A stretch of DNA of 44,111 bases from an uncultured Oscillospiraceae bacterium (GTDB lineage Bacteria > Bacillota > Clostridia > Oscillospirales > Acutalibacteraceae), in NCBI GenBank assembly GCA_948471095.1, contig CAOKRG010000018.1, forward strand, positions 1-44,111. The letters are read 5' to 3'. Positions 103 through 37,322 of this stretch are shown here, piece by piece; positions within the stretch are counted from its first letter, which is position 1, and every line of letters begins with the position of its first letter. A model generated the notes under the pieces. That model was not told where the DNA came from. It searched no databases and worked only from the letters and a program-made list of their open reading frames with translations. The translations under genes were made by a program, and so were the position numbers.

Positions 103-250
103 ATACATTACAAAACAGGCCGTGGGGCTCTGCCCCACACCCCGCAAGGTGCCAACTTCGCGGAGCGAATGTTGTAAGCTCCTGGACCGCGTATATTGCT
201 CACCGTTAATTTGAGTTTCGCCACATTTTTGCGAAGCAAAAATTAGCGCC
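103..250. repeat. THA repeat copy R1 (triloop-hairpin array)
   Basis: This intergenic repeat lies downstream of the glycogen operon. Hairpins in order: GTGGGGC/GCCCCAC around TCT (122-138); the purine-bulge hairpin (154-172, reverse orientation) with inner stem TTCGC/GCGAA around GGA and outer AAC/GTT; the end module CCTGGACCGCGTATATT (181-197), shared with copies R4, R6 and R9; and TTTTTGC/GCAAAAA around GAA (226-242). The order GTGGGGC hairpin, bulged hairpin, CCTGGA module is the same as in R9 at 37225-37300. No coding signal is visible. Confidence 0.75.
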
Positions 251-334
251 TCGCGCAAAGGGCGGAAACTGGCAACAGCGTACATTATAGCACAATTTCC
301 GCCAAAATGGAAGCAAAAGATTACAAAATAATTA

Positions 335-364
335 CAAAAAGGCGGCAGGTTGCCCCGCCGCCTT
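335..364 (-). terminator. Rho-independent terminator of the glgBCDA operon
   Basis: On the minus strand an 8-bp stem, AAGGCGGC with GCCGCCTT (357-364 and 339-346), closes a GC-rich loop and runs into a T tract (complement of 336-340). It lies 31 bp past the glgA stop codon. Confidence 0.85.
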
Positions 365-394
365 ACATTGGTATTCGATCCGACTAAAAACTTC

Positions 395-1822
395 TCAGTT
401 CTCCATGATCTGCTTGTACAGCTTGATGTACTCGCCGGCCGACCTGCCCCAGCTGTTGTCGCAGCCCATGGCCCGGTCCACCAGCACGCCCCAGCCCTCC
501 TTGTCGGAGTTGTAGGCGTAAATGGCCCGGTGCAGGCTGTGCAGCATGTCGCCGGTGTTATAGGTCATAAAGGTGAAGCCGTTGCCCACCCCGTCGCCGC
601 TGTCGGTAATGGAATCCTTCAGGCCGCCGGTCTCCCGGATGACCGGGATGGTGCCGTAGCGCAGGGCGATCATCTGGGACAGGCCGCAGGGCTCGGACTT
701 GCTGGGCATCAGGAAAATGTCGGCCCCGGCGTAAATCTTCCGGGAGAGCTCCGGCACAAAGCCCAGGCACAGCACGAACCGGCCGGGATACTTCTCCTGC
801 ATCCACTTGAAGTAGTTTTCATACTCCAGGTCGCCGCTGCCCAAGATCACGATCTGGGCGTTGGAGTACTCCATCACATTGTCCACGCCCTCTTTCACCA
901 GGTCCAGGCCCTTGTGGGAGACCAGCCGGGTCACCATGCCGATCAGCGGCACGTCCGGGTCCGCCTCCATGCACAGGCGCTCCTGGAGCTTTTTCTTGTT
1001 CACCGTCTTGTTGGCCTTGTCGGCCTGGCTGTAGTTGGCGTAAAGGTTGGGGTCGGCCGCCGGGTCGTAGCCCACGGTGTCGATGCCGTTGAGAATGCCC
1101 GAAAGCTTCCAGCTGCGCTCCCGGAGGATGGGGTCCAGCTTGTGGGAGAACCAGGGGTCCAAAATCTCCTGGGCATAGCTGGGGCTCACGGTGGAGACCC
1201 AGTTGGCGCACTCAATGGCCCCCTTCATCAGGTTCACGTCCCGGTTGAACTCCAAAAGCTGGCTCTCATAGGCGGGAATGCCGAACACGTCCTCCAGAAT
1301 ATCCTTGCCATACTGGCCCTGATACTGGATGTTGTGGATGGTGAACAGGGTCTTAATGCCCGCGTACCACTCGTTGTTGGCATAGAACAGCCGGTAATAG
1401 ACCGGCACCAGGGCGGTCTGCCAGTCGTTGGCGTGGATCACGTCCGGCTTGTAGTCGATGTAGGGCAGCATCTCCAAAATGGCCCGGGAGAAGAACGCGA
1501 AGCGCTCCGCGTCGTCAAAATGCCCGTAAAGGCCGCCGCGCTTGAAATAGTACTGGTTGTCGATGAGGTAATAGGTCACCTGGCCGATCTTGGCCTCAAA
1601 AATGCCGCAGTACTGCCGCCGCCAGGCCACGGGCACGGAGATGCTGGTGATGAACTTCATCTTGTCCCGCAGCTCCTGGGAGACATTGTCATACAGGGGC
1701 ACCACCACCCGGCACCCTACCATGCGGGCCCGCAGGGCCTGGGGCAGGGAACCGGCCACGTCCGCCAAGCCGCCGGTGGCGGAGAAAGGCAGGGCTTCGC
1801 TGGCACAGAATAAAATCTTCAT
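395..1822 (-). CDS. glgA: Glycogen synthase (ADP-glucose), GT5
   Basis: Adds glucose from ADP-glucose to the non-reducing end of growing alpha-1,4-glucan in the cytoplasm. It is 475 residues, normal for GT5. The N-terminal Rossmann domain opens with a sugar-nucleotide loop (residues 13-24) and the C-terminal domain carries the EPCGLSQM...TGGLKDS signature. An AAAGGA ribosome site precedes the ATG. It is the last gene of glgB-glgC-glgD-glgA, 55 bp after glgD, and a terminator follows. The canonical loop is KTGGL, whose lysine (Lys15 in E. coli) contacts ADP-glucose. Here the loop is ATGGL with Ala15, which may lower substrate affinity or alter nucleotide preference. All other signatures look intact, so I expect an active enzyme. 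Confidence 0.95.
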   Translation of the reverse strand: MKILFCASEALPFSATGGLADVAGSLPQALRARMVGCRVVVPLYDNVSQELRDKMKFITSISVPVAWRRQYCGIFEAKIGQVTYYLIDNQYYFKRGGLYGHFDDAERFAFFSRAILEMLPYIDYKPDVIHANDWQTALVPVYYRLFYANNEWYAGIKTLFTIHNIQYQGQYGKDILEDVFGIPAYESQLLEFNRDVNLMKGAIECANWVSTVSPSYAQEILDPWFSHKLDPILRERSWKLSGILNGIDTVGYDPAADPNLYANYSQADKANKTVNKKKLQERLCMEADPDVPLIGMVTRLVSHKGLDLVKEGVDNVMEYSNAQIVILGSGDLEYENYFKWMQEKYPGRFVLCLGFVPELSRKIYAGADIFLMPSKSEPCGLSQMIALRYGTIPVIRETGGLKDSITDSGDGVGNGFTFMTYNTGDMLHSLHRAIYAYNSDKEGWGVLVDRAMGCDNSWGRSAGEYIKLYKQIMEN

Positions 1823-1877
1823 TGGTCAAATTCCTTTCCGCTTTTCTCGGTGTAGTAACGGGCTTTGCGCGCCAGGC

Positions 1878-2993
1878 TTAGACCCGGCTGCCCTTGCCCA
1901 CGTAGACCGGGTAGCTCTGGTAACCGGCCATCTTGCGGCCCGCGTCGAAGATCACGTTCTTGTCCGCCACCACATAATCCAGGCGGCAGTCTTCGCCGAC
2001 CACGCAGTCCTGCATGATCACGCAGTTCTGGAGCTTGGCTCCCTTGTGGACCTTCACGCCCCGGAAGATGATGCAGTTCTCCACCTCGCCGTCAATGATG
2101 CAGCCGTCGGCCACAATGGAGTTGGTGACGGAGGAGCCCAAGCCGTACTTGGCGGGCATGTCATCCCGCACCTTGGTGTAGACCGGGCGCTCCGGCAGGA
2201 ACAGCTGGGCCCGCACCTTGGGGTCCATCAGGGCCATGTTGGCCTCGAAATAGCTGTGGAAGGAGGTGATGGTATAGGCCGCGCTGGTGCACTCGTAGGC
2301 AAAGACCTTCAGGTCCTTCAGGTTGCGCTGCAGCACGTCCCGGTCAAAGTCGTACAGGTTGCGGCTCATGCAGTCCTCTACCATGTCTATGAGCATCTGG
2401 CGGCGCAGGATGCACTTGCCAAAGCCATAGTTGCAGTTGGCGTCGCTGCCCCGCTTGATGAGCATATCCCGCACGAAGCCCTCCGGGTCCACGGTGTAGA
2501 CCACGTTACGGTCCGTGTCCGGGGAGGTGCCGTGGCGGTAGATCACGGTGATGTCCGCGTTCTTCTCGGTGTGGAAGCGGAACACGTCCCGGTAGTCGAT
2601 GTTGGAGACCGTGTCGCAGTTGGAGAGCAGCACGTACTCCTCCTTGGAATTCTTCAGGAAGCGGTGGATGGAGGAAAGGCTGGCCACCAGCCCGTCCGTC
2701 CGGTTGGTGTCCGCGCCGAAGGGGGGCAGCAGGTACAGGCCCTCCCGCTTGCGGGAGAGGTTCCAGGACTTGCCGGAGCCCAGGTGGTCCATCAGGGACT
2801 GGTAGTTCTGCTCGGTGATTACGCCCACCTTGTTGACCCCGGAATTCACCAGGTTGGAAAGGGCGAAGTCCACCAGGCGGTAGCGCCCGCCGAAGGGTAT
2901 GGAGGCCATCACCCGGTTTTCAGTCAGTTCTCTTACACGCTCCTCATGCACATAGGCAAAGAGGATGCCAATTACGTCGTTGCCGCGCATCAT
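1878..2993 (-). CDS. glgD: Glucose-1-phosphate adenylyltransferase, regulatory-type subunit GlgD
   Basis: Partner of GlgC in ADP-glucose synthesis. In Firmicutes GlgD has little or no activity alone and raises the activity of the GlgC/GlgD heteromer. The fold is kept: an N-terminal nucleotidyltransferase domain with PFGGRYRLVDF near residue 35 and a C-terminal left-handed beta-helix. The glycine-rich pyrophosphorylase loop of GlgC is missing, and the catalytic GDH motif reads NCD, as expected for a non-catalytic paralogue. I place the start at 2993 because GGGAG lies 9 nt upstream. An ATG at 3002 sits directly against that ribosome site. It lies 31 bp after glgC in the same operon. Confidence 0.92.
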   Translation of the reverse strand: MMRGNDVIGILFAYVHEERVRELTENRVMASIPFGGRYRLVDFALSNLVNSGVNKVGVITEQNYQSLMDHLGSGKSWNLSRKREGLYLLPPFGADTNRTDGLVASLSSIHRFLKNSKEEYVLLSNCDTVSNIDYRDVFRFHTEKNADITVIYRHGTSPDTDRNVVYTVDPEGFVRDMLIKRGSDANCNYGFGKCILRRQMLIDMVEDCMSRNLYDFDRDVLQRNLKDLKVFAYECTSAAYTITSFHSYFEANMALMDPKVRAQLFLPERPVYTKVRDDMPAKYGLGSSVTNSIVADGCIIDGEVENCIIFRGVKVHKGAKLQNCVIMQDCVVGEDCRLDYVVADKNVIFDAGRKMAGYQSYPVYVGKGSRV

Positions 2994-3033
2994 ATGGGCC
3001 ATCTCCCTTTCTTTTGTGAAAATTGTAAGGTTT

Positions 3034-4248
3034 TCATCTCTTTACGCCCTCCTCGGCGTCCAGCATCTCCTGGGGCGCCACGCAGGCGCCGGGGGCCACG
3101 TGGGCCCGGGGGCCCACCACGGCCACGCCCCACTTGTCCTTGTCTTCCATCTCCTCGGGCTTCATGCCCACCACGGCCCCCGCGCCGACCACCGCGTCCT
3201 CGGCCACGATGGCGTACTGGACCTTGGCGCCCTCTTCAATGCGGGCGCCGGGCATGATGATGGAGGACATGACCTCCGCCCCGGGGGCCACATAGACCCC
3301 GGCGAAGAGGATGGAGAACTCCAGGTCGCCGTACACATTGCAGCCCTCGGCAATCAGGGAGTTCTGCACCTGGGAGCCCTTGGCGATGTAATGGGGGGGC
3401 ATAACCGGGTTGCGGGAATAGATGCGCCAGTCCGGGTCGCCCAGGTCCAGGGGGACGTTGGGATCCAGCAGGTCCATGTTGGCCTCCCACAGGCTGTCGA
3501 TGGTGCCCACGTCCTTCCAGTAGCCCTCAAAGCGGTAGGCGAACATCTTCTCGCCGGCGTTCAGCATGGCGGGCAGGACGTTCTTGCCAAAGTCGTTGTC
3601 GCTGCCCGGGTCCTCCTCGTCGGCCAGCAGGAACTTGCGCAGCTTCTCCCAGGTGAAGACATAGATGCCCATGTTGGCCAGGTCGTTCTTGGGCTGCTTG
3701 GGCTTCTCGTCAAACTCGTAGATGGAGTCGTCCTCGTTGGTGTTGAGGATGCCGAAGCGGCTGGCCTCGGCCATGGGCACCTGCTGCACGGCGATGGTGA
3801 CGGCGGCGTCCTTCTCCTTATGGAAGGCGATCATCTTGGCATAGTCCATCTTATAGATGTGGTCGCCGGAAAGGACCACCACATAGTCCGGGTTGTAGCG
3901 CTCGATGAAGGGAATATTCTGGGTGATGGCATTGGCGGTGCCCTTGTACCAGTCGGAGCCCTTGCTCTTCTGGTAGGGGGGCAGCACATGGACGCCCGCG
4001 TCCATGCTGTCCAGGTCCCAGGGCTGGCCGGAGCCGATGTACTCGTTGAGCTCCAGGGGCTGGTACTGGGTGAGCACGCCTACGGTCTCGATGCCGGAAT
4101 TGACGCAGTTGGAAAGGGGAAAATCGATGATGCGGTACTTGCCGCCAAAGGGCACGGCGGGCTTTGCCAGGTTCTTCGTCAAGACTCCCAGCCGGCTGCC
4201 CTGGCCGCCCGCAAGCAGCATAGCTACGACCTCTTGTTTGGGTAACAT
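3034..4248 (-). CDS. glgC: Glucose-1-phosphate adenylyltransferase, catalytic subunit
   Basis: Makes ADP-glucose and pyrophosphate from ATP and glucose-1-phosphate, the committed step of glycogen synthesis. It is 404 residues. The pyrophosphorylase loop [13 protein letters not shown] (about 12-24) is followed by [22 protein letters not shown] with the metal-binding Asp, and EFDEKPKQP in the sugar-phosphate site. The C-terminal third is a hexapeptide-repeat beta-helix. AGGAGG precedes the ATG. It lies 94 bp downstream of glgB and 31 bp upstream of glgD. The intact catalytic motifs contrast with GlgD and support a GlgC-active, GlgD-modulating pair. Confidence 0.96.
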
Positions 4249-4342
4249 GTTTCGTCCTCCTATTATTTCAATTTATATATCGCAACGCGTCCGCCAGGGC
4301 TGGCTGCTGAAAAAACCGGCGGACGCACGTACTGCGCCGGGC

Positions 4343-6373
4343 TCAGCCCGCGGCCCGAACCGAACCGGGCCGTTCGGCGGGAGCCTCCGCCGCCTTGGGC
4401 ACGGGCATGGCCTTTACCTTGGGCTTGGGCTTCTCGCTGCGCTTTACGCACTCCAGGAAGAACACGGAGCAGCCGGGCAGGGTCAGGGAGACGCTCTGCT
4501 CGCAGCCGTGCATGGGCTCGTCCAGGGTGCGGATGCTCTTGCCGTTGCTCACGCCGCCGCCGCCGAACTCCTTGGCGTCGGAGGTAAAGACCTCGGCCCA
4601 GGTTCCCCAGTAGGGCACGCCGATCTTGTAGTCCTCCCGCTCCACGGGCACAAAGTTGCACACGCACACCAGCTCTTTGCCGTCCTTGGCCTTGCGCCGG
4701 AAGGCGATGACGCTCTGGGTGTAGTCGTCGTTGCTGATCCACTCAAAGCCCTCCCAGGAGAAGTCGATCTCCCACAGCTCCGGGCGGCTCAGGTAGAAGC
4801 GGTTTACGGCCTTGAAGAAGCGCTGGGCGTTCTGGTGCTCCTCATACTGCAAAAGGCCCCATTCCAGCTCCTTTTCAAAGTTCCACTCGTTCTTCTGGGC
4901 AAATTCCGTGCCCATAAATTGCAGCTTCTTTCCCGGGTGGCCCATCATATAGGAGACGAAAGCCCGCATCTGGTCCGCCTTCATCTTGTCGTCGCCGGGC
5001 ATTTTGTTAATCAGCGAGCCCTTGCCATAGACCACCTCGTCGTGGGAGATGGGCAGAATGAAGTTCTCGGAGAAAGCGTAGAAAAAGGAGAAGGTCAAAG
5101 AGCTGTGGTTGCCGCTGCGGAACAGGGGATCCATGGACATATAGCGGAGCATGTCGTTCATCCAGCCCATGTTCCACTTGTAGTTGAAGCCCAGGCCTCC
5201 CATAAAGGTGGGCTTAGAAACCATAGGCCAGGCGGTGGACTCCTCGGCGATCATCATGGGGTCCTTGACCTCGGCGAAGACCGCCTCGTTTAGGGCCTGC
5301 AAAAAGGCCACCGCCTCCAGGTTCTCCTTGCCGCCGTCCTTGTTGGGGACCCACTCCCCGTCCCTGCGGTTGTAGTCCAGGTAGAGCATGGAGGCCACCG
5401 CGTCCACCCGCAGGCCGTCCACATGGTATTCCTTCAGCCAGAACACCGCGCTGGACACCAAGAAGCTGACCACCTCGGGGCTGCCGTAGTCGAATACCAA
5501 AGTGCCCCACTCCTTATGCTCGCCCTTGCGGGGGTCCGCGTATTCATAGCAGGGCGTGCCGTCAAACTTGGCCAGGCCCGCCGCGTCCCGGGGGAAATGG
5601 GCCGGGACCCAGTCCATAATGACCCCAATGCCCGCCTGATGGCAGCGGTCCACAAAGCTCATAAAGTCCTTGGGCTGGCCATAGCGGGAGGTGGGCGCAA
5701 AGTAGCCCATCACCTGGTAGCCCCAGGAGCCGTCGTAAGGGTACTCGGTCAGGGGCATAAACTCAATGTGGGTAAAACCCATCTCCTTCACGTAGGGAAT
5801 CAGCTCGTCGCCCAGCTTCTCGTAAGAGAACACGCTGCCGTCCGCGTATTTCCGCCAGGAGCCGGCGTGTACCTCGTATATGTTCACCGGCTGGGCATAG
5901 TGGGGCTGCTTCTCCTTCTTCTCCTGCCAGGCCTTGTCCTGCCAGGCGTAGTCTTCCAGCTCATACCAGCGGGAGGCTGTGCCGGGGCGGGTCTCGGTGT
6001 GGCGGGCGTAGGGGTCGGCCTTATAGCTGTCCTGCCCGTCGGCGGTCTTGATATAGAACTTGTACATCTCAAAGGGCTGGAACACAAAGTCCGTGTAGCC
6101 CTCCCAAACGCTGCCGTCCACCTTGCGCAGGGGGTACTTGGCGCTGTCCCAGTTGCAGAAATTGCCCACCAGGGACACCGCCCGGGCATGAGGGGCCCAC
6201 ACACGGGCCACCATGCAGGGCTTGCCGCCCCGAACCGCCTTGTGCACGCCCAGGTACTCGTACACCCGCCGGTTTTTGCCCCGGTGGAACAGGTCCAGGG
6301 GAATTTCGCCAGGGTTGGGGGCCTTGGCCCCGGCTTTCGCGGCAGACTCCATACCGGTCTTTTCCGTATTCAT
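4343..6373 (-). CDS. glgB: 1,4-alpha-glucan branching enzyme, GH13
   Basis: Cuts an alpha-1,4 chain and rejoins it as an alpha-1,6 branch. It is 676 residues. A CBM48-type domain (about 50-125) precedes the GH13 barrel. Catalytic residues read as nucleophile D324 (GLRVDAV), acid/base in the AEEST motif at E377/E378, and D445 (SHDEV). The last 30 residues are a Lys/Pro/Ala-rich tail outside the enzyme fold. AAGGAGA lies about 9 nt before the ATG. It is the first gene of the operon, with a good promoter about 85 bp upstream. No glycogen phosphorylase or debranching gene lies beside it, so breakdown genes must be elsewhere. Confidence 0.95.
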   Translation of the reverse strand: MNTEKTGMESAAKAGAKAPNPGEIPLDLFHRGKNRRVYEYLGVHKAVRGGKPCMVARVWAPHARAVSLVGNFCNWDSAKYPLRKVDGSVWEGYTDFVFQPFEMYKFYIKTADGQDSYKADPYARHTETRPGTASRWYELEDYAWQDKAWQEKKEKQPHYAQPVNIYEVHAGSWRKYADGSVFSYEKLGDELIPYVKEMGFTHIEFMPLTEYPYDGSWGYQVMGYFAPTSRYGQPKDFMSFVDRCHQAGIGVIMDWVPAHFPRDAAGLAKFDGTPCYEYADPRKGEHKEWGTLVFDYGSPEVVSFLVSSAVFWLKEYHVDGLRVDAVASMLYLDYNRRDGEWVPNKDGGKENLEAVAFLQALNEAVFAEVKDPMMIAEESTAWPMVSKPTFMGGLGFNYKWNMGWMNDMLRYMSMDPLFRSGNHSSLTFSFFYAFSENFILPISHDEVVYGKGSLINKMPGDDKMKADQMRAFVSYMMGHPGKKLQFMGTEFAQKNEWNFEKELEWGLLQYEEHQNAQRFFKAVNRFYLSRPELWEIDFSWEGFEWISNDDYTQSVIAFRRKAKDGKELVCVCNFVPVEREDYKIGVPYWGTWAEVFTSDAKEFGGGGVSNGKSIRTLDEPMHGCEQSVSLTLPGCSVFFLECVKRSEKPKPKVKAMPVPKAAEAPAERPGSVRAAG

Positions 6374-6454
6374 GGCTATCGATCTCCTTGTCCTGGTATT
6401 GTCGGCAGCGCCGCGCTTCCCGCACGGAGCCGCCTTTCAGAATTTACCACTACT

Positions 6455-6482
6455 ATCATACCATATCCCAAAAAAAATTCAA
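6455..6482 (-). promoter_or_regulatory. Sigma-A promoter of the glg operon
   Basis: On the minus strand, -35 TTGAAT (6482-6477), a 16-bp spacer and -10 TATGAT (6460-6455) preceded by TGG, an extended -10. It gives a leader of about 75 nt before glgB. The stretch 6483-6663 upstream shows no gene or clear element. Confidence 0.6.
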
Positions 6483-6663
6483 GTGTTTTTAGCTATTTAT
6501 TTTAAGATTTACACTCTAACTCCTTGATCTTTGTTTCTTCTCACAAAAATCGACTCCATTCTCTGTGTAATAAGTAAACGGACTTTGAGAAAGGGACGCC
6601 CTTTTTTGAACGGCGCTGCCCATGCCGCCGGCAACCGTGCCCGCGTCTTCGGGCCCGGAAACG

Positions 6664-6690
6664 CAAAAGGCGGGGGATGCTCCCCCGCCG
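6664..6690 (-). terminator. Rho-independent terminator after the nucleotidyltransferase gene
   Basis: A perfect 9-bp stem, GGCGGGGGA with TCCCCCGCC (6669-6677 and 6681-6689), closes a 3-nt loop. On the minus strand it is followed by TTTT. It lies 21 bp past the stop codon of the gene at 6711-7649. Confidence 0.85.
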
Positions 6691-6710
6691 GACCGCTTTT
6701 TCTCCTTTGT

Positions 6711-7649
6711 TCAGCCCTGTCCGCCCCACACCGGCGAGGGGTACTCCCCCCTCTCGGTCAGGTCCCGCAGGGCCCGGGCCACCGGCTCCCGGTCCACCCG
6801 GTAGGTGACGCCGTACCACTTGCAGCCGGTCTCCAGCACCCGAACCTGGGCCTTGCCCGCCTCCACCAGAGCGTTCACCGCAAAGGGCAGGTAAAACTCC
6901 CCCTTCAGCGGGTTCTTGGGCAGGTCCTCCCGGAAAAACCGGGCGTACTCCCGCTCCAGCTCCGCCGTAAAGCCCGGCGTAAAGCCCCAAAGCTGCATGG
7001 AAACCGGCGTTTCCGGCTCCAAAATGGTCCAGCTGGCGCCCTCGTCCTCGGTGTAGCCGATGCGCCCGTCCTCCAGCTTAGAAATCTTGGTGCGCTCCAC
7101 CACCCGGGCCAGCAGCCCGTCCTCCACCTGGCATACGCCCCGGGACACCGCGCCGTTTTCGGAGACCGTGTTCTGCACCTGGTAGCCCACCATGCACAGG
7201 TCCAGCTTTTCCCCATCTCGGGCGCTTTTCAAAAACTGGTACACCTGCTGGAAGGCCTCCCGGCCGTAAAAGTCGTCCGCGTTGATGACCGCGTAAGGCG
7301 CGCCGCCCACGGCCCTCGCGCCCGTCAAGGCCGCGTGGCCGGTGCCCCAGGGCTTCTCCCGGCCCGCTGGGATACCCTCCCCCGCCGGGACGTCCTCCAT
7401 CTCCTGAAAGACGCAGTCCGCCTGTAGGTAGCCCTCCATGGGGGCCAGAATTTCCCGGCGGAAGTCCTCCTCCATGCCGCGCTTGATCACGCATACCACC
7501 CGGCGGAACCCGGCCCGCCAAGCGTCGTACATGGAAAAGTCGATGATCCGCTCGCCGCAGGGTCCCACCGGGTCCACCTGCTTCAAGCCGCCCCCGCCGT
7601 ACCTGCTGCCCATTCCTGCCGCCATGATCACCAATACCGGTTCGCTCAT
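6711..7649 (-). CDS. Sugar-phosphate nucleotidyltransferase-like protein
   Basis: A 312-residue cytoplasmic protein with an NTP-transferase fold. The N-terminal nucleotide loop is LVIMAAGMGSRYGG (residues 6-19) followed by LKQVDPVGP, and a metal-site motif NADDFYG lies near residue 130. This family is related to UTP- or CTP-dependent sugar-phosphate activating enzymes. The sequence does not tell me the nucleotide or sugar. The start has AGGAGG 6 nt upstream. It follows an LCP ligase gene by 37 bp, so a role in activating a sugar for a wall-linked polymer is a reasonable inference. A strong terminator follows, making it the last gene of its transcript. Confidence 0.8.
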   Translation of the reverse strand: MSEPVLVIMAAGMGSRYGGGGLKQVDPVGPCGERIIDFSMYDAWRAGFRRVVCVIKRGMEEDFRREILAPMEGYLQADCVFQEMEDVPAGEGIPAGREKPWGTGHAALTGARAVGGAPYAVINADDFYGREAFQQVYQFLKSARDGEKLDLCMVGYQVQNTVSENGAVSRGVCQVEDGLLARVVERTKISKLEDGRIGYTEDEGASWTILEPETPVSMQLWGFTPGFTAELEREYARFFREDLPKNPLKGEFYLPFAVNALVEAGKAQVRVLETGCKWYGVTYRVDREPVARALRDLTERGEYPSPVWGGQG

Positions 7650-7686
7650 ACTTGCCTGCCTCCTGTTCTATGCCCAACGGGCATGA

Positions 7687-8928
7687 TTAGCCGAAAATGA
7701 ACCCGTGCAGATTTTGGACCATCAAGTCCTGGTCGAAGCGCAGGACCCAGCTGTCCTCTTCGTTGGTATCCCCATAGGCCCCTTCCGCCTCGCCGGGGAA
7801 GGTGGCGGACTCCACCTGGAAGCCGCCCAGGGCAAAGGGGGCCAGCCCGGCCAGGCCGGATAAATCCAGGGAGGTCTCGCTGTGGGAGAGCAGCCCCCGG
7901 GCCATGGAGGGAAGCCGCAGGAAATTGCCGGGCCGTACCTGGTCCAGAAGCCCGGCCAGCACCTGGTGCTGGCGGCTGGTGCGCTCCCCGTCCCCGCCCA
8001 GCTCCCGGATGCGGGCAAAGGCCACCGCCTGCCGGCCGTTGAGCTTCACCTTTCCGCCCACATATTCGCCGTCCACCATATTATGGGTGCCGTCCGTGGC
8101 GGTAAAGTAGTCGTCGTGCCGGATGCCGGAATCGCCGCCCTCTTCCTCCACCTCCCGGGAGAGGTTCCACAGGTTCCGGTTCACCTCCAGCATCTCCTCG
8201 CCGGAAAGCTCCAGCTCCACCCCGCCGAAAGCGTCCACGATCTCCGCCATCTCATAAAAATTGACGGTGACATAGTCTTCGATGTCTAAGTCAAAATTCT
8301 CGTTGATGGTCCGCACTGCCAAGGAGGGGCCTCCATAGGCATAGGCGTGGGTCAGCTTGTCATAGCCGTAGCCCTCGATGTACACCTCCGAGTCCCGCAT
8401 CAGCGAGGCCAGCTTCAGTTTGTGGCTCCGGCTGTCCGCGGTCAGCACCATCATCACGTCGGACCGGCCCTCGTTCTCCCTCTCCCGGGCGTCCACTCCA
8501 AAAAGGGCGATGTTCTTCACCCCGGCCGTCCGCACGGAAAGGTCGGCGCTCAGGCCCCCTTCCAGAGGCTTGACCCGCAGCGCGGAGAGCACGTACACGC
8601 CCGCCCCCACCAGGGCCACCAGCATCAGCGTAAGGACCCAGCCGATGACGCGGCCAGCGCTCCCCCGCCGCCGGGGCGGTTTGGGGGGGCGCTCTGCCCG
8701 CCGCTGGCCGGCCCGCCGCTCCCGCTCCGAAGAATAGCTGGAAATGTCCTGGAACTCCTGCCGGGCTCCTGGCTGGCCATAGGGCTCTTCATAGTAATAA
8801 TTGTCCCGCAGGGGCTCCTTTCGGGCCCGGGCAGGACGGCCTGCGCCCCGCCGCTCCCCCGCCGGGGGCCCGCTGCGGCTCCCGGCGGAATGCCGGCCCG
8901 CCTGGGGCTTTCTATCGTTGTTTCTCAT
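7687..8928 (-). CDS. LytR-CpsA-Psr (LCP) family protein 1
   Basis: LCP enzymes transfer undecaprenyl-linked polymers such as teichoic acids or capsule to peptidoglycan outside the membrane. This 413-residue copy has a long basic, low-complexity cytoplasmic N-terminus (1-90), one membrane helix (about 92-116) and an extracellular LCP domain. The domain shows the usual Arg/Asp sites: RSDVMMVLTAD, LASLMRDSEV, and the late FARIRELG with a following Arg-rich stretch. Its N-terminus carries DISSYSSERE, closely matching DVSSYSSSKE in LCP protein 2, so the two share more than the catalytic domain. No convincing promoter precedes it. It may be read through repeat R2 from the upstream LCP gene. Confidence 0.9.
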   Translation of the reverse strand: MRNNDRKPQAGRHSAGSRSGPPAGERRGAGRPARARKEPLRDNYYYEEPYGQPGARQEFQDISSYSSERERRAGQRRAERPPKPPRRRGSAGRVIGWVLTLMLVALVGAGVYVLSALRVKPLEGGLSADLSVRTAGVKNIALFGVDARERENEGRSDVMMVLTADSRSHKLKLASLMRDSEVYIEGYGYDKLTHAYAYGGPSLAVRTINENFDLDIEDYVTVNFYEMAEIVDAFGGVELELSGEEMLEVNRNLWNLSREVEEEGGDSGIRHDDYFTATDGTHNMVDGEYVGGKVKLNGRQAVAFARIRELGGDGERTSRQHQVLAGLLDQVRPGNFLRLPSMARGLLSHSETSLDLSGLAGLAPFALGGFQVESATFPGEAEGAYGDTNEEDSWVLRFDQDLMVQNLHGFIFG

Positions 8929-8990
8929 TGGCGTTTCCTTAAGTTATTTGCCCTTCTTCCCTTTTTTTGAAGCAAGTCCATTCATGCCGG

Positions 8991-9273
8991 GGCGTGTCCA
9001 AAAGGGCGCAGTTTTTGAAGAGTAATACGGAGTGGAGTCTCGCCTGCCGGCTCGGTCGAGTTGACAAAGTCAACTCGTGGTCAGAGCGCTTCCAGTACGT
9101 TGGCTGCGCCAAGTACCCGGGAAGCTTCCCCCTCCATGCGCAAGGTACGCGCATTACGGCAAGACCGTGGGGCTCCGCCCCACACCCCGCAGCCTTTGAA
9201 AAGGTTGACGAAACTTTTTCTGTTGCGCTCAGGGAGCCTTCTTCTTGTCAAAACGCGCGTTTTGGCTACTCCC
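8991..9273. repeat. THA repeat copy R2, MITE-like
   Basis: A 283-bp repeat fills the space between two LCP genes and ends 12 bp from the stop codon of the upstream one. It begins with the GTGTCCAAAA...GCAGTTTTTG end module. Hairpins: CGAGTTGAC/GTCAACTCG around AAA (9057-9077); the purine-bulge hairpin GTAC-G-TTGGC/GCCAA-GTAC around TGC (9095-9116); ATGCGC/GCGCAT (9136-9154); GTGGGGC/GCCCCAC around TCC (9167-9183). It closes with the TTGAAA-loop hairpin and the GCGCTCAGG module. The two ends form an imperfect terminal inverted repeat (CCAAAA...CGC...TTTTG). Confidence 0.8.
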
Positions 9274-9285
9274 TCATGCCGTCCC

Positions 9286-10455: not shown

Positions 10456-10487
10456 AAAATTCCTCCGAAGGGTAATCCGCCCGCCGC

Positions 10488-10913: not shown

Positions 10914-10960
10914 TGGGTCCTCCCAGGCGGGGCGGCGGGCGCTCCGGTCAATTATCCCTT

Positions 10961-10989
10961 ATTATACCCCAAAATCTTCCGGATTTCAA
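10961..10989 (-). promoter_or_regulatory. Sigma-A promoter of the gtrA-LCP2 unit
   Basis: Minus strand: -35 TTGAAA (10989-10984), 17-bp spacer, -10 TATAAT (10966-10961). The -35 box lies only 12 bp from the edge of repeat R3. Confidence 0.8.
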
Positions 10990-11000: not shown

Positions 11001-11266
11001 TGGGGGACTGTCCAAAATGGCGCAGTTTTTGAAAAGTAATACGGAGTAGAGTCTCGCCTGCCGGCTCGGTCGGGTCAGAACGGTCCCCACCAGGGACCTT
11101 CCCCCTCGGTCGGTTCGCGGCATGTCTGCCACCGGCAGACGCTCACCCCCTAAGAACCCACGAGTTATCCTTTGGATAACTCGTCCACTTCTTGAAAAAG
11201 TGGACAAAACTTTTACTGCTGCGCTCAGGATGCTTTCTATCCACAGCGCATCCATACGCAGTCCCA
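11001..11266. repeat. THA repeat copy R3, MITE-like
   Basis: A 266-bp repeat between the gtrA promoter and the HD gene, ending 10 bp from that gene's stop codon. It opens with GGGGGACTGTCC and closes with the complement of TGGGACTG, an imperfect terminal inverted repeat. Hairpins: GGTCCC/GGGACC (11082-11098); GTCTGCC/GGCAGAC around ACC (11124-11140); 11-bp arms ACGAGTTATCC/GGATAACTCGT around TTT (11160-11184); GTCCACTT/AAGTGGAC around CTTGAAA (11183-11205); then the ACTTTTACTGCTGCGCTCAGG end module in two parts. Confidence 0.8.
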
Positions 11267-12947: not shown

Positions 12948-14600
12948 ATGACAGCGGAAAAGGATTGGATCAAGGACCTGGTGATCTACCAAATTTATCC
13001 CAGAAGCTTTTGCGACTCCAACGGGGACGGCGTCGGCGACCTGCCGGGCATTTTGCAGAAGATGGACTATCTGCAGGAGCTGGGCGTCAACGCGGTCTGG
13101 CTCTCCCCGGTGTACCGCTCCCCCAACGACGACAACGGCTACGACATCTCCGGCTATCGGGAGATCATGGAGGAGTTCGGGACCATGGAGGACTGGGACC
13201 GGCTGCGGGACGCCTGCAAACAGCGGGGCATAAAGCTCATCATGGACCTGGTGGTGAACCACTCCTCGGACGAGCACCCCTGGTTCCAGGAGTCCCGTTC
13301 CTCCCGGGACAACCCCAAAAGCGAATATTACATCTGGCGGGACCCGGTGGACGGCCACGAGCCCAACAACTGGGCCTCCGCCTTCGGAGGCAGCGCCTGG
13401 GAGTACGCGCCGGAGCGGGGGCAGTATTATTTCCACTATTTCTCCAAGAAGCAGCCGGACCTGAACTGGGCCAGCCCCCGGCTGCGGGAGGAAATCCTCG
13501 GCATGATGGAGTGGTGGGTGGACAAAGGCGTGGACGGCTTCCGGGTGGACGCCATCAGCTACCTGGACAAGCCGGAGGACTTTCCCGACTCCAAGCTGCC
13601 GCCCCAGCCGGACGGGTTCTCCTTCCCGGACTGCCTGGCGGGCCGGCCGGGCACCCACGGCCATATCCGGGAGATGAACCGGCGGGTCTTCGCCCCCCGG
13701 AACGTGCTCACGGTGGGCGAGGTCTCGGCCCCCACGGTGGAGGAGCTGGCCAATTATGTGGATACCGGCCGGGAGGAATTCGACATGGCGATCCCCTTTG
13801 TGCTGCCCATGGTGGAGATCGATACCTGGTCCCCGGAAAAGCTGCGGCGGGACGTTTGGGAAAGCTATGAGGCTTTAAAGGAAAACGGCTGGTGGGCCCG
13901 GTTCTTCAGCAACCACGACAAGCCCCGGCAGGTCTCCCTCTATGGGGACGACGGAGAATATTGGGAGGCCTCCGCCAAGCTGCTGGGCCTCTTCCTCCAC
14001 AGCCTGCCCGGCACGCCCTTTGTGTACCAGGGGGAGGAGATCGGCATGACCAACGTGAGGCTTCCCCGCATCGAGGACTATGACGACCCGGACACCCAGA
14101 ACCGCTACCGGCAGCTGACGCTCTCCGGGGCCAGCCCCGAAGCGGCCTTGGCCCGGGCCCAGCTGGAAAGCCGGGACAATGCCCGCACCCCCATGCAGTG
14201 GGACGCCACGGAAACCGGCGGCTTCACCACCGGCAGGCCCTGGCTGAAGGTGAACCCCAATACCGCGTCCATCAACGTGGAGGCCCAGCGCCGGGACCCC
14301 TGCTCGGTCTTCCAGTTCTACCGGCGGCTCATCGCCCTGCGCCGGGAGCGGCCCGCTCTGGCCCGGGGGGACCTGGCCTTCCTGGAGACCGGCAGCGCGG
14401 AGCTGGTCGCCCTGACCCGCAGCCTCCCGGGGGAAAAGCTGTTGGCCGTGTTCAATTTTTCCGCGGAAGGGCACACCGTTCCCGCCGGCCTGCTGGAAGG
14501 GGTGGGGGAAGCCCTGCTCTCCTCCTACGACCGGCAGGGCGGCTGGCAGGGCCCGGCCCTGCGGCCCTATGAGGCGGCGCTGTTCTCCGTTGCCGGATAA
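12948..14600 (+). CDS. GH13 alpha-glucosidase / oligo-1,6-glucosidase family
   Basis: Cytoplasmic exo-glucosidase of 550 residues that releases glucose from short alpha-glucans. It starts with the family opening DLVIYQIYPRSFCDSNGDG. Catalytic residues are D201 (GFRVDAIS), E258 (LTVGEVS) and D324 (SNHD). The ATG at 12948 has AGGAGG (12934-12939) 8 nt upstream, and no signal peptide is present. The residue after the nucleophile is Ala202. In this family Val there goes with alpha-1,6 and Thr/Ala with alpha-1,4 preference, so a maltase-like specificity is likelier. It pairs functionally with maltodextrin or glycogen turnover. Repeat R4 begins exactly at its TAA. Confidence 0.92.
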   Translation: MTAEKDWIKDLVIYQIYPRSFCDSNGDGVGDLPGILQKMDYLQELGVNAVWLSPVYRSPNDDNGYDISGYREIMEEFGTMEDWDRLRDACKQRGIKLIMDLVVNHSSDEHPWFQESRSSRDNPKSEYYIWRDPVDGHEPNNWASAFGGSAWEYAPERGQYYFHYFSKKQPDLNWASPRLREEILGMMEWWVDKGVDGFRVDAISYLDKPEDFPDSKLPPQPDGFSFPDCLAGRPGTHGHIREMNRRVFAPRNVLTVGEVSAPTVEELANYVDTGREEFDMAIPFVLPMVEIDTWSPEKLRRDVWESYEALKENGWWARFFSNHDKPRQVSLYGDDGEYWEASAKLLGLFLHSLPGTPFVYQGEEIGMTNVRLPRIEDYDDPDTQNRYRQLTLSGASPEAALARAQLESRDNARTPMQWDATETGGFTTGRPWLKVNPNTASINVEAQRRDPCSVFQFYRRLIALRRERPALARGDLAFLETGSAELVALTRSLPGEKLLAVFNFSAEGHTVPAGLLEGVGEALLSSYDRQGGWQGPALRPYEAALFSVAG

Positions 14601-14771
14601 GAGCCTGTATTCACAGCCAAAGAACCACCACTCGGCTGACGGTAACCAAGTGTACGCGGTCCAGGTGCGGGGAAGATTGTCAGTGGCAATCTTCCCCGCA
14701 CCTGGACCGCGTATATTCCCTACTTTTACCTGTCAGCGTAATCGTTCTTCATTTGTGAATACAAGTTCTTA
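14598..14771. repeat. THA-linked palindromic element R4
   Basis: A 174-bp element that is one long interrupted palindrome. Outer ends are TAAGAGCCTGTATTCACA and the complement of TAAGAACTTGTATTCACA. The core is a perfect 27-bp inverted repeat (14653-14679 and 14687-14713) around a 7-nt loop, TCAGTGG. Its first three bases are the TAA stop of the glucosidase gene. The right arm, reversed, matches about 70 bp of R6 (17398-17470) almost exactly. It sits between convergent genes and may also act as a bidirectional terminator. Confidence 0.85.
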
Positions 14772-16163: not shown

Positions 16164-16233
16164 ATGAAAGCCGCCTTCCGCCAAAACAAAATTTTCCACC
16201 TGGTGGAAAACGGCCTGGAAGCCCGGCCGCGGG

Positions 16234-16466
16234 GGGAGTGTCCAAAGGGCGTTGTTATTCAAAAGTATTAGGAGGCCTCCGGCGGTCAAGTTCATCAAAG
16301 ATGAACTTGCGGGGCTCTGGGTCTCGGCTCCGCCTCGGTCGGTTCGCAGCGTGTCTGCCACTGGCAGACGTTCACCCCCTAAGAACCCCGCCACCTTTAA
16401 AAAGGTGGACGAAACTTTTAATGGCTCGCTGACCTAACTTTTTTAACAACGCGTTTGGACACTCCC
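16234..16466. repeat. THA repeat copy R5, MITE-like with terminal inverted repeats
   Basis: A 233-bp element bounded by GGGAGTGTCCAAA...GCGTTGTTA and its inverted copy (GGGAGTGTCCAAACGCGTTGTTA read from 16466 leftward). Inside are the GCCTCCGGCGG module; 9-bp arms AAGTTCATC/GATGAACTT around AAA (16288-16308); GTCTGCC/GGCAGAC around ACT (16353-16369); and CCACCTTT/AAAGGTGG (16391-16408) followed by GAAACTTTTAA. It has no gene. GCCGC on both flanks could be a target duplication, which is uncertain. Confidence 0.85.
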
Positions 16467-16481
16467 GCCGCAAGAAAGGCC

Positions 16482-16542: not shown

Positions 16543-17400
16543 TTGAAACGAATCATTTCCATTCTGCTTGCCTGCGCCCTGCTCTTCTCCCTTTCCGCCT
16601 GCGGCGGCTCCGCCGGAGACTCCAAAGCGGCCCACGTTCTGGACAACAAGGACAGCCTGGTTCCCATGGACGAGCTAAGCCCCGCTAAAAACAGCCAAAA
16701 GCTGGGCTATCAGCTGGAAGAGCCCGCCAAGGGCGAAGAGATCGCCGTCATGACCATGAAGACCGGCGAGGTCATCAAAATCCGCTTCTTCCCCGACGAG
16801 GCGCCCAAGGCCGTGTATAACTTCAAGCTCCACGCCATTCAGGGCTACTATGACGGCCTGACCTTCCACCGGGTGATGGAAAACTTCATGATCCAGGGCG
16901 GCAGCCCGGACGGCACCGGCACGGACGGCGTCAGCGTGTGGGACCAGGACTTTGAGGACGAGTTTGCCGGCAACCTGGTGAACATCGACGGCTCCCTCTC
17001 CATGGCCAACCGGGGGCCTGCCACCAACGGCAGCCAGTTCTTCATCAACTGCACTAACACGCCGGTCCAGTCCAGCCTGTGGAGCCAGTATGAGCAGGCC
17101 TTTGAGGAATTCCAGGAGGTGTATAAGGAGAACAAGGAGTACATCGACTCCAACCCCAACCTGAAGACCCTGGACATGGACAAGGTCACCGAGGAATACA
17201 AGGCCCTTTATGAGGCCCAGGGCGGCAACGTGCACCTGGACGGGGCCTACTCCACCAATGGCACCGGGCACACCGTGTTCGGGCAGGTCTTCGAGGGCAT
17301 GGACAGCGTGTACGCCCTCTCCAAGGCCGAGACCGACCCCAGCAACGACAAGCCCCTGGAGGACATGGTCATCGAGAAGGTGGAGATCGTGGTTTACTAA
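16543..17400 (+). CDS. Cyclophilin-type peptidyl-prolyl isomerase, lipoprotein
   Basis: Catalyses cis-trans isomerisation of Xaa-Pro bonds, here outside the membrane. It is 285 residues and starts at TTG, with AGGAGG upstream. A lipoprotein signal ends at LSAC (Cys20). The cyclophilin domain shows the catalytic FHRVMENFMIQGGSP (Arg about 107), the NRGPATNGSQFFI segment, and the closing HTVFGQVFEGMD. Between the last two lies a mostly helical insertion of about 60 residues not found in a minimal cyclophilin. It is probably a folding helper at the cell surface. Its TAA coincides with the edge of repeat R6. Confidence 0.92.
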   Translation: MKRIISILLACALLFSLSACGGSAGDSKAAHVLDNKDSLVPMDELSPAKNSQKLGYQLEEPAKGEEIAVMTMKTGEVIKIRFFPDEAPKAVYNFKLHAIQGYYDGLTFHRVMENFMIQGGSPDGTGTDGVSVWDQDFEDEFAGNLVNIDGSLSMANRGPATNGSQFFINCTNTPVQSSLWSQYEQAFEEFQEVYKENKEYIDSNPNLKTLDMDKVTEEYKALYEAQGGNVHLDGAYSTNGTGHTVFGQVFEGMDSVYALSKAETDPSNDKPLEDMVIEKVEIVVY

Positions 17401-17613
17401 GAGCCTGTATTCACAAATGAAGAACGATTACGCTGACAGGTAAAAGTAGGAAATATACGCGGTCCAGGTGCGTTAGGCACCTGGCAGGGTTCTTAGGGAC
17501 GGAGTCCCGCAAGTTCATCTTTGATGAACTTGGCCGCCGGAGGCCTTAACAGTACTTAAAAGGGCCGTAGGCCTCTTAGGGACGACTTGGCGAAGCCAAC
17601 GTCATAAGTCCCG
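17398..17613. repeat. THA repeat copy R6
   Basis: Begins with TAAGAGCCTGTATTCACA, whose TAA is the stop of the cyclophilin gene. Then come the ACGCGGTCCAGG module; CCAGGTGC/GCACCTGG (17464-17484); GGGAC/GTCCC around GGA (17496-17508); AAGTTCATC/GATGAACTT around TTT (17511-17531); GCCGCCGGAGGCC; and the purine-bulge hairpin in reverse, GGGAC...GAC-TTGGC/GCCAA-GTC...GTCCC around GAA (17579-17612). Most modules are in reverse orientation compared with R5 and R8. Confidence 0.8.
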
Positions 17614-17712
17614 GCCTGCTTTTCCTGTCGTTTAGCGCAGAAGTAATATCCCGGTCAAGTTCTAAAGGCCCACAGGAACGCGCCCGCCATTTTATGCAAA
17701 AACCATAAGCAT

Positions 17713-31968: not shown

Positions 31969-31973
31969 GCACG

Positions 31974-32442
31974 GCCTCCGGCGGCTTAAGAAACTTCTTG
32001 AAAGAAGTTTCTTAAGAATCTTCAAGAACTTTTAAACGTTTTACGAGGGTGGAGGGAGTGAGTTGGGCGCTCGGTTTGGGGCGGGATGCGATACATTGTC
32101 TTTGTGAACTCGACCAACGCGGCAACCGAAAAAACACAAAGCTTTTACTTCCGCTTTGACCAACCAAACGTAGCAGGAAAAGTTTCGTCCTTCTTTGCTG
32201 CCTCATCGGTATAGCCTTCCCGTTGCCTCAAACCGAGCGCTCAGTGTGCGCCTCGCACTTACGATAAACGTTTAAAAGTTTCGTCCACCTTTTCAAGAGG
32301 TGGACGAGTTATCCAAAAGATAACTCGTGGGTTCTTAGGGGGTGAACGTCTGCCAGTGGCAGACACGCTGCGAACCGACCGAGGCGGAGCCGAGACCCAG
32401 AGCCCCGCAAGTTCATCTTTGATGAACTTGACCGCCGGAGGC
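31974..32442. repeat. Composite inverted THA element R7
   Basis: A 469-bp element bounded by inverted GCCTCCGGCGG. The left half has one hairpin, 13-bp arms CTTAAGAAACTTC/GAAGTTTCTTAAG around TTGAAA (31985-32016), then AACTTTTAAACGTTT. The right half, inverted, has GTCCACCT/AGGTGGAC (32283-32305), an ACGAGTTATC/GATAACTCGT hairpin (32304-32328), GTCTGCC/GGCAGAC (32348-32364) and AAGTTCATC/GATGAACTT (32409-32429). GCGCTCGGTTTG (32067-32078) recurs inverted at 32229-32240. The middle 150 bp hold no gene. Confidence 0.8.
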
Positions 32443-33610: not shown

Positions 33611-33775
33611 GAGGGCCTCCGGCGGCCAAGTTCATCAAAGATGAACTTGCGGGGCTTATGACATTCGCTTCGCGAAGTCGCCCCTAAGAACCCACGAGTT
33701 ATTCATAGGATAACTCGTCCACTCCTTGAAAAAATGAACAAAACCTTTACAGTTGCGCTCAGGAAGCTTTCTCCG
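33611..33775 (+). repeat. THA repeat copy R8 (reference orientation)
   Basis: Reading left to right: GCCTCCGGCGG module (33615-33625); AAGTTCATC/GATGAACTT around AAA (33628-33648); purine-bulge hairpin (33651-33684) with GGGGC/GCCCC, GAC/GTC, unpaired A63, TTCGC/GCGAA and loop TTC; ACGAGTTATTC/GGATAACTCGT around ATA with one T-G wobble (33694-33718); a decayed CTTGAAA-loop hairpin; and the TTGCGCTCAGGAAGCTTTCT end module. Confidence 0.82.
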
Positions 33776-33816
33776 TGAAAAACACGCGTCCGGCCGCTTC
33801 CCTTCCACAAAGGCCC

Positions 33817-36980: not shown

Positions 36981-37018
36981 TGCGCTGTCCTCCTGAATCA
37001 ATGTAAGCATTTGGTATA

Positions 37019-37047
37019 ATTATACTCCCGCCCTCGAGAAAAAGCAA
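37019..37047 (-). promoter_or_regulatory. Sigma-A promoter of pduL-EEP
   Basis: Minus strand: TTGCTT (37047-37042), 17-bp spacer, TATAAT (37024-37019). Divergent from the promoter at 37055-37083, only 7 bp away. Confidence 0.75.
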
Positions 37048-37054
37048 CGGAAAT

Positions 37055-37083
37055 TTGACTTTATTTTCTCTCCGTGGTAAAAT
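37055..37083 (+). promoter_or_regulatory. Sigma-A promoter reading into repeat R9 and the glycosylase gene
   Basis: TTGACT (37055-37060), 17-bp spacer, TAAAAT (37078-37083) preceded by TGG. Transcription would start near 37090, so the whole of R9 lies in the leader of the gene at 37397. Confidence 0.72.
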
Positions 37084-37140
37084 GTACACGGCGCAGACCT
37101 AGATGGGAAACGCGACTTGTCGTGGCCGTGTACCGGAAGT

Positions 37141-37322
37141 TTCGGGACTGCCCCAAGGGGGCAGTTTTGGAAGAGTAATACGGAGTGGCCTCCGGGCGCA
37201 AAAGGCGCGCCCTACGGCAAGGCCGTGGGGCTCTGCCCCACACCCTGCCAGGGGCCGCGACTTCGCGGAGCGAACGTCGACGCCCCTGGACTGCGTACAT
37301 TTTTCACCATTAACTGGTAGAG
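37141..37322. repeat. THA repeat copy R9, inside a predicted leader RNA
   Basis: Hairpins in order: ACTGCCCC/GGGGCAGT around AAG (37147-37165); GGGCGC/GCGCCC (37194-37212); GTGGGGC/GCCCCAC around TCT (37225-37241); the purine-bulge hairpin in reverse, extended by CCAGGGGC/GCCCCTGG (37248-37289); then CCTGGACTGCGTACATT. It starts with the GGGACTG...AGTAATACGGAGT module of R2 and R3 and ends with the module of R1 and R4. Confidence 0.82.

Follow-up and report, generated by a model that had tools for sequence, protein, structure and literature searches.

The closest described counterparts of the repeats considered here are the CGTC REPs, grouped with dRS3, RPE-4 and RPE-6; these are short palindromes with a tag at one end and varying stems, and they are unevenly distributed across taxa. 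In the sections of the source drawn on here, they have single stems of 8-9 bp, loops of 4-5 nt, a CGTC (or TGTC, CCTC) tag and a CCA-like tail, they occur mostly in alphaproteobacteria, also inside genes, and their authors found no associated transposase (PMC3733652). As for the Rickettsia palindromic elements, the excerpted account describes an in-frame palindrome of ~150 bp inserted in unrelated genes, to which it adds a conserved peptide (PMC10969869). Finally, BOX, RUP and SPRITE of Streptococcus pneumoniae are modular intergenic repeats (boxA-boxB-boxC) with strong secondary structure, and both of their strands have open frames; BOX copies differ in how many boxB modules they contain, and MITE-like mobilisation has been proposed in the part of the source used (PMC3049150).

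The window, that is, the whole stretch of 44,111 nt analysed, contains nine repeat sites; three were read directly and all nine were folded, and they have perfect or near-perfect stems and many triloops, as the first-pass annotation had reported. That these sites share modules and hairpins, another of its claims, is borne out by matches that far exceed chance: 16275-16388 recurs inverted at 32329-32442 (114 nt, 100% identity), 11147 matches 33681 over 92 nt at 89%, and 14697 matches 17396 over 77 nt at 96%, again inverted. When the repeat depth of the window was scored against the genomic loci sampled, ten segments reached a depth of at least 3, and these are the nine sites, one of them split in two; four of the sites, used as BLAST queries, had at least 93, 53, 52 and 44 matches in their own genome, with 40 initial candidates scored per query. 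The nine sites are members of a genome-wide repeat population, which comprises hundreds of short intergenic elements. However, they are not one element: the single family with common end modules that had been proposed is replaced by at least three frame classes, defined by their terminal inverted repeats (TIR A, B and C), with modules in common.

At the contig start, a partial mosaic element (103..250, no strand assigned) is supported by the repeat-depth segment 117-209, shared repeats and folding; it contains the GTGGGGC-TCT-GCCCCAC hairpin (122-138) and the CTGGACCGCGTA module, named X. The class A mosaic element at 8990-9273 (+ strand; 8982..9281 with flanks) is bordered by a perfect 8-bp duplication, TCATGCCG, at 8982-8989 and 9274-9281, and it holds the head of a GTCTCGCC unit followed directly by the hairpin GAGTTGAC-AAA-GTCAACTC (9037..9076, +; model 30.7 bits). 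The class A element at 11001..11266 (+) has the left end GGGACTGTCCAAA at 11004-11016, its right TIR not being found, and a GTCTCGCC unit at 11051..11104 (+; 43.9 bits, E 4.2e-8); the one at 16234-16466 (+; 16226..16474 with flanks) lies between GCCGCGGG and GCCGCAAG, identical at 6 of 8 positions, with a unit at 16321..16376 (+; 31.7 bits). A class B element, 14598..14771, is a long palindrome of unassigned strand with the TIR AGAGCCTGTATTCA / TGAATACAAGTTCT, and it overlaps the upstream ORF at its stop codon. At 17398..17648 (no strand assigned), a class B left end, 96% identical over 77 nt to the right arm of 14598-14771, is combined with the core modules G, the CAAGTTCATC hairpin and the GACTTGGCGAAGCCAACGTC hairpin. 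The long composite at 31973..32442 (no strand assigned), located between GCCTCCGGCGG and CCGCCGGAGGC, has GGCGCTCGGTTTG arms and the inverted copy of 16275-16388, with a unit on the - strand at 32341..32396 (31.7 bits). Core modules G, the CAAGTTCATC hairpin and the ACGAGTTAT hairpin occur with a class A right-arm segment at 33611..33797 (no strand assigned), and 37141..37326 (+) is, by eye, a chimera: its left arm is of class A type and is joined to the GTGGGGC hairpin, and its right arm is of the X type found in many class B and C elements.

The outer frames fall into at least three TIR classes, and their identity as MITE-like, non-autonomous transposons is largely established, in line with one of the roles that the first-pass annotation had considered possible. 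In the own genome, TIR A had 245 matches against 32 for its reversed pattern and TIR B 92 against 3, this control having been run for A and B only. Paired ends at most 620 bp apart (up to 3 mismatches) numbered 39 for class A, 16 for B and 7 for C, in a list that includes false pairs, such as two at 23407 and 41518 inside coding sequence of the window, counts one right end twice and has 4 elements with a single marker only. Identical 8-bp flanks occur in 5 of the 39 class A pairs, and the mean number of matching positions is 3.36 of 8, compared to 2.06 after shuffling (highest of 500 shuffles, 2.62); duplication above shuffles was not detected in the flanks of the 16 class B or 7 class C pairs. 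The class A target duplications thus point to a DDE-type transposase acting in trans. No transposase was found in the window, as had been stated, in a Pfam scan that covered 30 of the 145 ORFs of at least 80 aa (many of which overlap) and assigned 26 to a family. In the assembly, which is 86.6% complete, no IS-sized facing TIR B pair was seen by eye among the matches listed; for TIR A, 100 of the 245 places were covered. The frames are like MITEs in being short and flanked by TIR, with the 8-bp target duplication of class A, and differ from those in the portion of the source consulted in having mosaic interiors common to different TIR classes (PMC10969869).

Inside the frames lies a scaffold of partly fixed order, in which hairpins are exchangeable and slots are filled or empty. 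Modules were present in 54 of 62 paired elements, in 48 distinct strings over all classes and, as the annotation had noted, in both orientations; marker G preceded R in 24 of the 25 elements holding both. The cassette shuffling it proposed is therefore only partly right: the subsets vary, but the core order is largely fixed. A single known insertion sequence with fixed order, which it had named as the contrary outcome, was not found, despite this largely fixed core. Filled and empty versions appear as 575 HSP pairs at 196 places, and single hairpins of ~20 nt are exchanged in the same slots. The U module is present in 30 of the 54 module-bearing elements and in all three frame classes; the GTCTCGCC unit is the commonest passenger module of the frames, and by eye one copy (L162) is nested inside stem P3 of another. 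Compared with BOX as described in the excerpts available, the window elements are likewise modular, intergenic and structured, but three TIR classes draw on one hairpin pool with varying slot filling, and one of the modules moves in its own right, across bacterial families (PMC3049150).

The GTCTCGCC unit is ~50-80 nt long, with a conserved 21-nt head and covarying stems, and its layout is 5'-GTCTCGCCTGCCGGCTCGGTC + GGYGC-[P3]-[P4 NNNNCC-ACY-GGNNNN]-GCRCC; besides a mini-hairpin, it has a domain in which P2 encloses one or two hairpins, most of their loops being 3 nt long. In the A2 alignment (36 of 63 type I units), 95.9% of the cells were paired, compared to 34-45% when slid, and 103 cells were double-changed against 27.7 when shuffled. 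In A1 (31 of 39 type II units, leaving out the mistyped L126, L177 and L208 and five similar to others), the values were 99.7% against 25-45% and 75 against 20.2; the P2 stem could not be counted in this alignment, and two of its five measures were not clearly above shuffles (further pair types 347/500; double-change pairs 24/500). Model matches beyond the exact-head selection retained the head, several of them with compensating changes at pairs 6-15 and 7-14; of 15 loci inspected, 8 had the head pattern, and the other 7 had diverged, mostly compensated heads by the covariance model. It should be noted that covariation could alternatively stem from hairpin-templated correction of imperfect palindromes. 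Neither the window nor 14 foreign loci matched an Rfam model at gathering score, and 16200-16500 gave nothing at E up to 1; no identity or description of the unit family was found in Rfam or in the literature searched.

Copies of the repeats are not confined to the window, contrary to the outcome against which the annotation had guarded. The unit has at least 130 matches in its own genome (150 of 3152 candidates scored), its exact 23-mer was found in at least 115 stretches, and 17 of the 391 genomes sampled in the class carry it, the own genome among them, in 14 of 223 genera and with unrelated flanks. Viral sequences gave 31 stretches, four of which (L472, L486, L489 and L493) have the head pattern only and by eye are not units; a search of phage records gave two with the unit, identical over 871 bp, and a plasmid search gave no match. 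Targeting of tRNAs was set aside as an explanation: a tRNA lies within 150 bp in 7 of 158 unit rows, two of which are the same place repeated in overlapping loci.

The unit is an independent mobile palindromic element, whose movement is seen in nine phage filled/empty comparisons. CC is at the junction in 9/9, and no target duplication was seen; these empty sites alone are independent evidence, the right-flank CC of 79 foreign units being partly built into the unit definition. The CC side is exact, while at the GTCTC side some junctions are exact and others off by a few bases; these loose left junctions were judged against relatives differing by a few to ~30 percent, so that ordinary substitutions may account for some of them, and the comparisons of L376 and L291 are distant ones. 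The cleanest comparison, L496 with L497, shows one exact insertion of 63 nt. Eight of the nine insertions are in genes, and seven of these are in frame, namely those in an MTase gene (four filled cases, three positions) and in L496, L576 and L656; the one in the holin gene of L292 is frameshifted. The unit was antisense to the gene in 8/8 gene insertions compared, and in frame it can add ~21 residues. A location always in hairpin loops was discarded, since a flank helix of at least 6 bp occurred in just 9 of 72 foreign units (mean 2.6 and maximum 9 in 300 shuffles; removing units with a common flank 10-mer had first reduced the set from 95 to 82, 72 of them foreign); at most some units sit in hairpin loops.

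Both palindrome families introduced above are best read as resembling the unit while being distinct from it. Like the CGTC REPs, it is a tagged palindrome with varying stems, patchy taxa and genic copies; it differs from them, as the consulted sections describe them, in its length of ~50-80 nt, its 21-nt head, its mini-hairpin plus one or two hairpins and its occurrence in Clostridia, and its empty sites reveal insertion at CC (PMC3733652). In addition, the base preceding GTCTC is variable (in the 79 foreign units, G 40, T 16, A 15, C 8), loops are mostly of 3 nt, and hairpins are closed by P2, unlike in CGTC REPs and RPEs. In-frame insertion into protein genes, seen for the unit in phages, is a behaviour in common with the Rickettsia elements, which, compared by description only, are of ~150 bp and from Rickettsia (PMC10969869). 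GTAG REPs with RAYT are also high-copy tagged palindromes; as the first-pass annotation held, the unit is unlike them, at least in the parts of those sources used, with GTCTCGCC as its head, no GTAG tag and Y1 not found in most carriers tested (PMC2817692, PMC3733652).

The preferred reading, with a probability of about 0.68, is that transposon frames carry transposase-less mobile palindromes, the unit inserting directly 5' of CC as a folded single strand. Its mobility is shown by the filled/empty comparisons, whereas we infer the insertion mechanism. Most likely, the folded single strand would be the thing recognised or copied; the GG 3' end of the target would pair with the terminal CC of the unit and be extended along it up to the GTCTC end, which would then be joined with a loose junction. 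Units would land in frames, other hairpins, genes and phages, and frame transposition together with recombination between copies would increase their number and rearrange them, which would produce the window's mosaics. No enzyme has been identified for the insertion, and none of the 40 largest ORF clusters around the unit (4096 ORFs, 115 loci, L117-L231) was, by eye, a transposase family.

If the unit were REP-like, ssDNA moved by a Y1 HUH transposase of RAYT or IS200/IS605 type, with its internal GG guiding it to the target CC, then the absence of duplication, the one-sided conserved flank (CC in 9/9), the conserved head and the covarying hairpins, which fit the folded single strand that the annotation had suggested for a tyrosine (HUH) recombinase, would all be explained. 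However, PF01797 was detected in 6 of the 16 carrier genomes tested, but not in G101, G529, G134, G286 or G349 (95-100% complete); the own genome has one copy (L251), a short ORF of IS200-like type close to the end of a contig, and no unit was found in the 1.9 kb of L251; and the second junction, exact in L496, is loose in several cases. This mechanism is considered unlikely. The junction asymmetry fits a SINE-like retroposon, a small RNA copied into a nick by a reverse transcriptase with an exact, CC-primed 3' end and a loose 5' end, as do the RNA-like covariation and the antisense orientation; a resident enzyme should then be present in carriers, yet RVT_1 was found in 7 of 17, the own (incomplete) genome, G101 and G529 being among those where it was not. 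A weak test revealed no clear 5'-truncated copies either: 39 of 114 foreign domains were headless, and most of those inspected were the reverse strand of a complete unit; this origin is considered quite unlikely.

Neither enzyme class is universal among carriers, and in G101 and G529 neither was found, which favours a process with no unit-specific enzyme: host polymerase template switching at CC/GG microhomology, possible at one junction, would copy hairpins, and the same slippage and recombination would reassort modules, as in the ~20-nt exchanges. Random switching should yield partial copies, whereas the inserted units are complete and end alike on both sides even in distant families, and this account is doubtful. 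A tentative reading, below even odds, is a SINE-like or polymerase-copied hairpin, a structured RNA or ssDNA of ~50-80 nt, GG/CC-primed and copied whole without a dedicated transposase, that spread across many Clostridia families and phages and adds in-frame peptides. Decay of one ancestral composite by hairpin deletion, with immobile modules, would account for the G-before-R order; it is contradicted by the phage empty sites, where the unit arrives alone, and by its several slots, both orientations and unrelated flanks across many genomes, and it is highly improbable.

In conclusion, under the reading of frames that carry mobile palindromes, the window is an example of how transposon frames can become mosaics, by capturing mobile hairpins smaller than themselves. 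The movement of transposase-less palindromes such as CGTC REPs was left open in the consulted part of the source (PMC3733652); that question becomes testable with the unit, for which there are filled/empty pairs, a covariance model and carriers where neither of two obvious enzyme classes was found, and the model can be used to annotate the unit in genomes of Clostridia and phages.

The contig carrying the window (C18) is part of a 2.52-Mb genome, in 83 contigs and 86.6% complete. Comparison of the window with itself revealed long near-identical stretches, direct and inverted, common to its nine hairpin-rich intergenic sites, and the segments with a repeat depth of at least 3 coincide with these sites, bearing out the sharing proposed in the first-pass annotation; three sites were inspected directly, while folding was done for all nine. 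Four of the nine, used as queries with 40 candidates scored each, had at least 93, 53, 52 and 44 matches in the genome. Most sites are bordered by Pfam-supported ORFs, and two class B sites overlap a stop codon. Pfam families were assigned to 26 of the 30 window ORFs scanned; none of the 30 matched a transposase, as had been noted from the sequence. Regarding the surroundings, a starch/glycogen-type gene cluster (starch synthase, nucleotidyl transferases, amylase domains) lies among the elements at 395-14600, and a 37-nt direct repeat (92%) at 43960 and 44075 reaches the contig end (43960-44111).

The outer shells of the repeats are MITE-like frames with terminal inverted repeats (TIRs) of class A (GGGAGTGTCCAAA), B (AGAACCTGTATTCA) or C (TAGACCTCTTGCGAAA). 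In the whole genome, TIR A has 245 matches at up to 2 mismatches vs 32 for the reversed pattern, and TIR B has 92 vs 3. The own sequence examined for paired ends came to 656 kb (400 kb sampled regardless of copies, the window, and islands retrieved for their copies); when up to 3 mismatches were allowed, it contained 39 A, 16 B and 7 C pairs, of which some are false. An 8-bp target duplication is exact in 5 of the 39 class A pairs, and TCATGCCG flanks the element at 8990-9273 in this way; class A flanks match on average at 3.36 of 8 positions, vs 2.06 after shuffling (highest shuffle 2.62). No duplication above shuffles was found in the flanks of the 16 B and 7 C pairs, and the genome listing of TIR B matches showed no facing pair of IS size; for TIR A the listing covered 100 places. 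Class B ends recur at an identical 162-bp spacing in the same genome (C9:22731, C22:2878, C33:14056, C44:1194), as if a homogeneous, non-mosaic class B element also existed. At another retrieved locus (L251, 182-1279), a 291-aa ORF has a class A-like end on its upstream side; the ORF product presumably resembles a PD-(D/E)XK nuclease/putative transposase family protein.

As for the interiors, 33 of the 39 A, 14 of the 16 B and all 7 C elements bear modules, and these 54 elements, four of which hold a single marker, display 48 distinct module strings. The scaffold runs from G (CCTCCGGCGG) through a hairpin slot (CTTAGGGGC...CCCCTAAG) to R (AAGAACCC), followed mostly by D/F right arms in A and by X in B; the slots are occupied by differing hairpins. 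The cassette shuffling suggested earlier holds for slots and subsets, but the order is constrained, with G ahead of R in 24 of the 25 elements holding both (the exception is an A element): module shuffling is real yet constrained. The unit U, a palindrome of ~50-80 nt with a 21-nt head and stems P2, P3 and P4, occurs ahead of G, within the L-R slot, or inverted close to the right arm. It is marked in at least 30 of the 54 elements, a lower bound because the marker misses some diverged units, such as that of 16234-16466, which the model recovered. Homologous loci with and without inserts gave 575 HSP pairs, which fall at 196 places; at the 46 of these that were listed, many inserts measure ~20-23 nt (one hairpin) or ~52-57 nt (mostly U).

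The unit extends well beyond the window. The search of the genome and its relatives proposed in the earlier reading, run with the unit model R1, placed units at 9037, 11051, 16321 and 32341 in the window. It gave at least 130 matches in the own genome, where 150 out of 3152 candidates were scored. At least 17 of the 391 class genomes sampled (the own genome counted among the 17), in 14 of 223 genera, are carriers, a lower bound given 13 candidates scored per genome and stricter filters. The head pattern, with as many as 3 mismatches allowed, has 30 matches in 444 kb selected without regard to copies (the window plus 20 stretches). At least 115 stretches from named genomes contain an exact copy of the 23-mer GTCTCGCCTGCCGGCTCGGTCGG, including Acutalibacter, Neglectibacter, uncultured rumen Ruminococcus, Bacterium D16-76, Ca. 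Caccousia and Lachnospiraceae AC2029; a unit also lies on a contig titled uncultured Alistipes (L156), possibly a binning error. Flanks are largely unrelated between copies, repeats inside single assemblies excepted. Units within 150 bp of a tRNA account for 7 of 158 unit rows, representing 5 distinct places. Some units (L134, L152, L272, L258, L166, L204) lie within partial tRNA-like sequence, several of them immediately after an intact tRNA (Gly, Leu, Arg, Pro), and in G286 two tandem unit pairs stand beside tRNA-Pro-like fragments (C9 96918-97202; L258 1449-1737).

Covariation is strong on 5 of 5 measures in type I units, which have P3 (alignment A2, 36 sequences), and on 3 of 5 in type II, which lack it (A1, 31 sequences). 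Because a near-exact head was required for entry into both alignments, head conservation in them partly reflects that choice; in model matches outside this selection the heads differ, and pairs 6-15 and 7-14 are kept by compensating changes in several, the head of L256 having non-standard pairs at one of the two positions.

Nine comparisons of filled and empty sites came from phage relatives. In a gene family of methyltransferase type (L284, L372, L474), which we take from its sequence to be a cytosine methyltransferase, the unit follows YNMG (L372 vs L373/L374; L284 vs L376 shares this position), VAKG (L284 vs L372/L373) or NDQG (L474 vs NDQGG in 46 of 82 retrieved loci). Three different insertion positions are seen in this one family (L284, L372, L474, L477, L483), which may be a hotspot or a tolerant protein. 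In a holin-like gene (L292 vs L293/L294) the frame is shifted and the ORF ends early; L496 vs L497 is exact, the coding strand reading GTGGGG, the 63-nt unit, CTTACG; L576 vs L578 and L656 vs L657 are in frame, with 2-4 bases altered at the GTCTC side. Finally, the insertion of L288 (vs L291) is intergenic between aligned flanks, and a short hypothetical ORF covers it in the deposited annotation. In unit orientation, CC stands directly at the junction of the empty site in 9 of 9 comparisons. In 8 of 8 gene cases the unit and the gene run on opposite strands; two cases have one position in common, so the 8 are not all independent events. All six frames are open in 51 of 89 foreign units, vs 14% of shuffled ones; stop codons alone therefore do not force the antisense orientation, which other selection could set.

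The closest known kinds are CGTC REPs and RPEs (PMC3733652, PMC10969869) for the unit and BOX (PMC3049150) for the modular frames. CGTC repeats apparently have no dedicated transposase, according to their authors; a word search of the main text of that paper returned neither 'Firmicutes' nor 'Clostridi' (PMC3733652). Among the open-licence papers listed by the searches, no description of the unit was found.

The data show that the unit inserts whole, that CC stands at one of its junctions and that its stems covary; no duplication was seen. The most likely reading is a copying model in which the folded single strand would be the form recognised or copied. HUH, RT and host template switching are its rivals, and covariation alone does not tell these three apart; it might also stem from hairpin-templated correction. 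Regarding enzymes, Y1_Tnp was found in 6 of 16 carrier genomes and RVT_1 in 7 of 17. In the own genome, one short Y1_Tnp ORF lies close to the end of a contig, and no unit was found in the surrounding 1.9 kb; RVT_1 was not found in this 86.6% complete assembly. Among 40 ORF clusters listed near units, no recurrent transposase family was seen. Neither enzyme was found in G101 (11 units listed) or G529 (4 units listed), each of them 99% complete; a resident Y1_Tnp or RVT_1 is therefore not needed to carry units, though insertion may need one. Under the copying model, GG/CC pairing would prime the copying, and the GTCTC end would be joined loosely.
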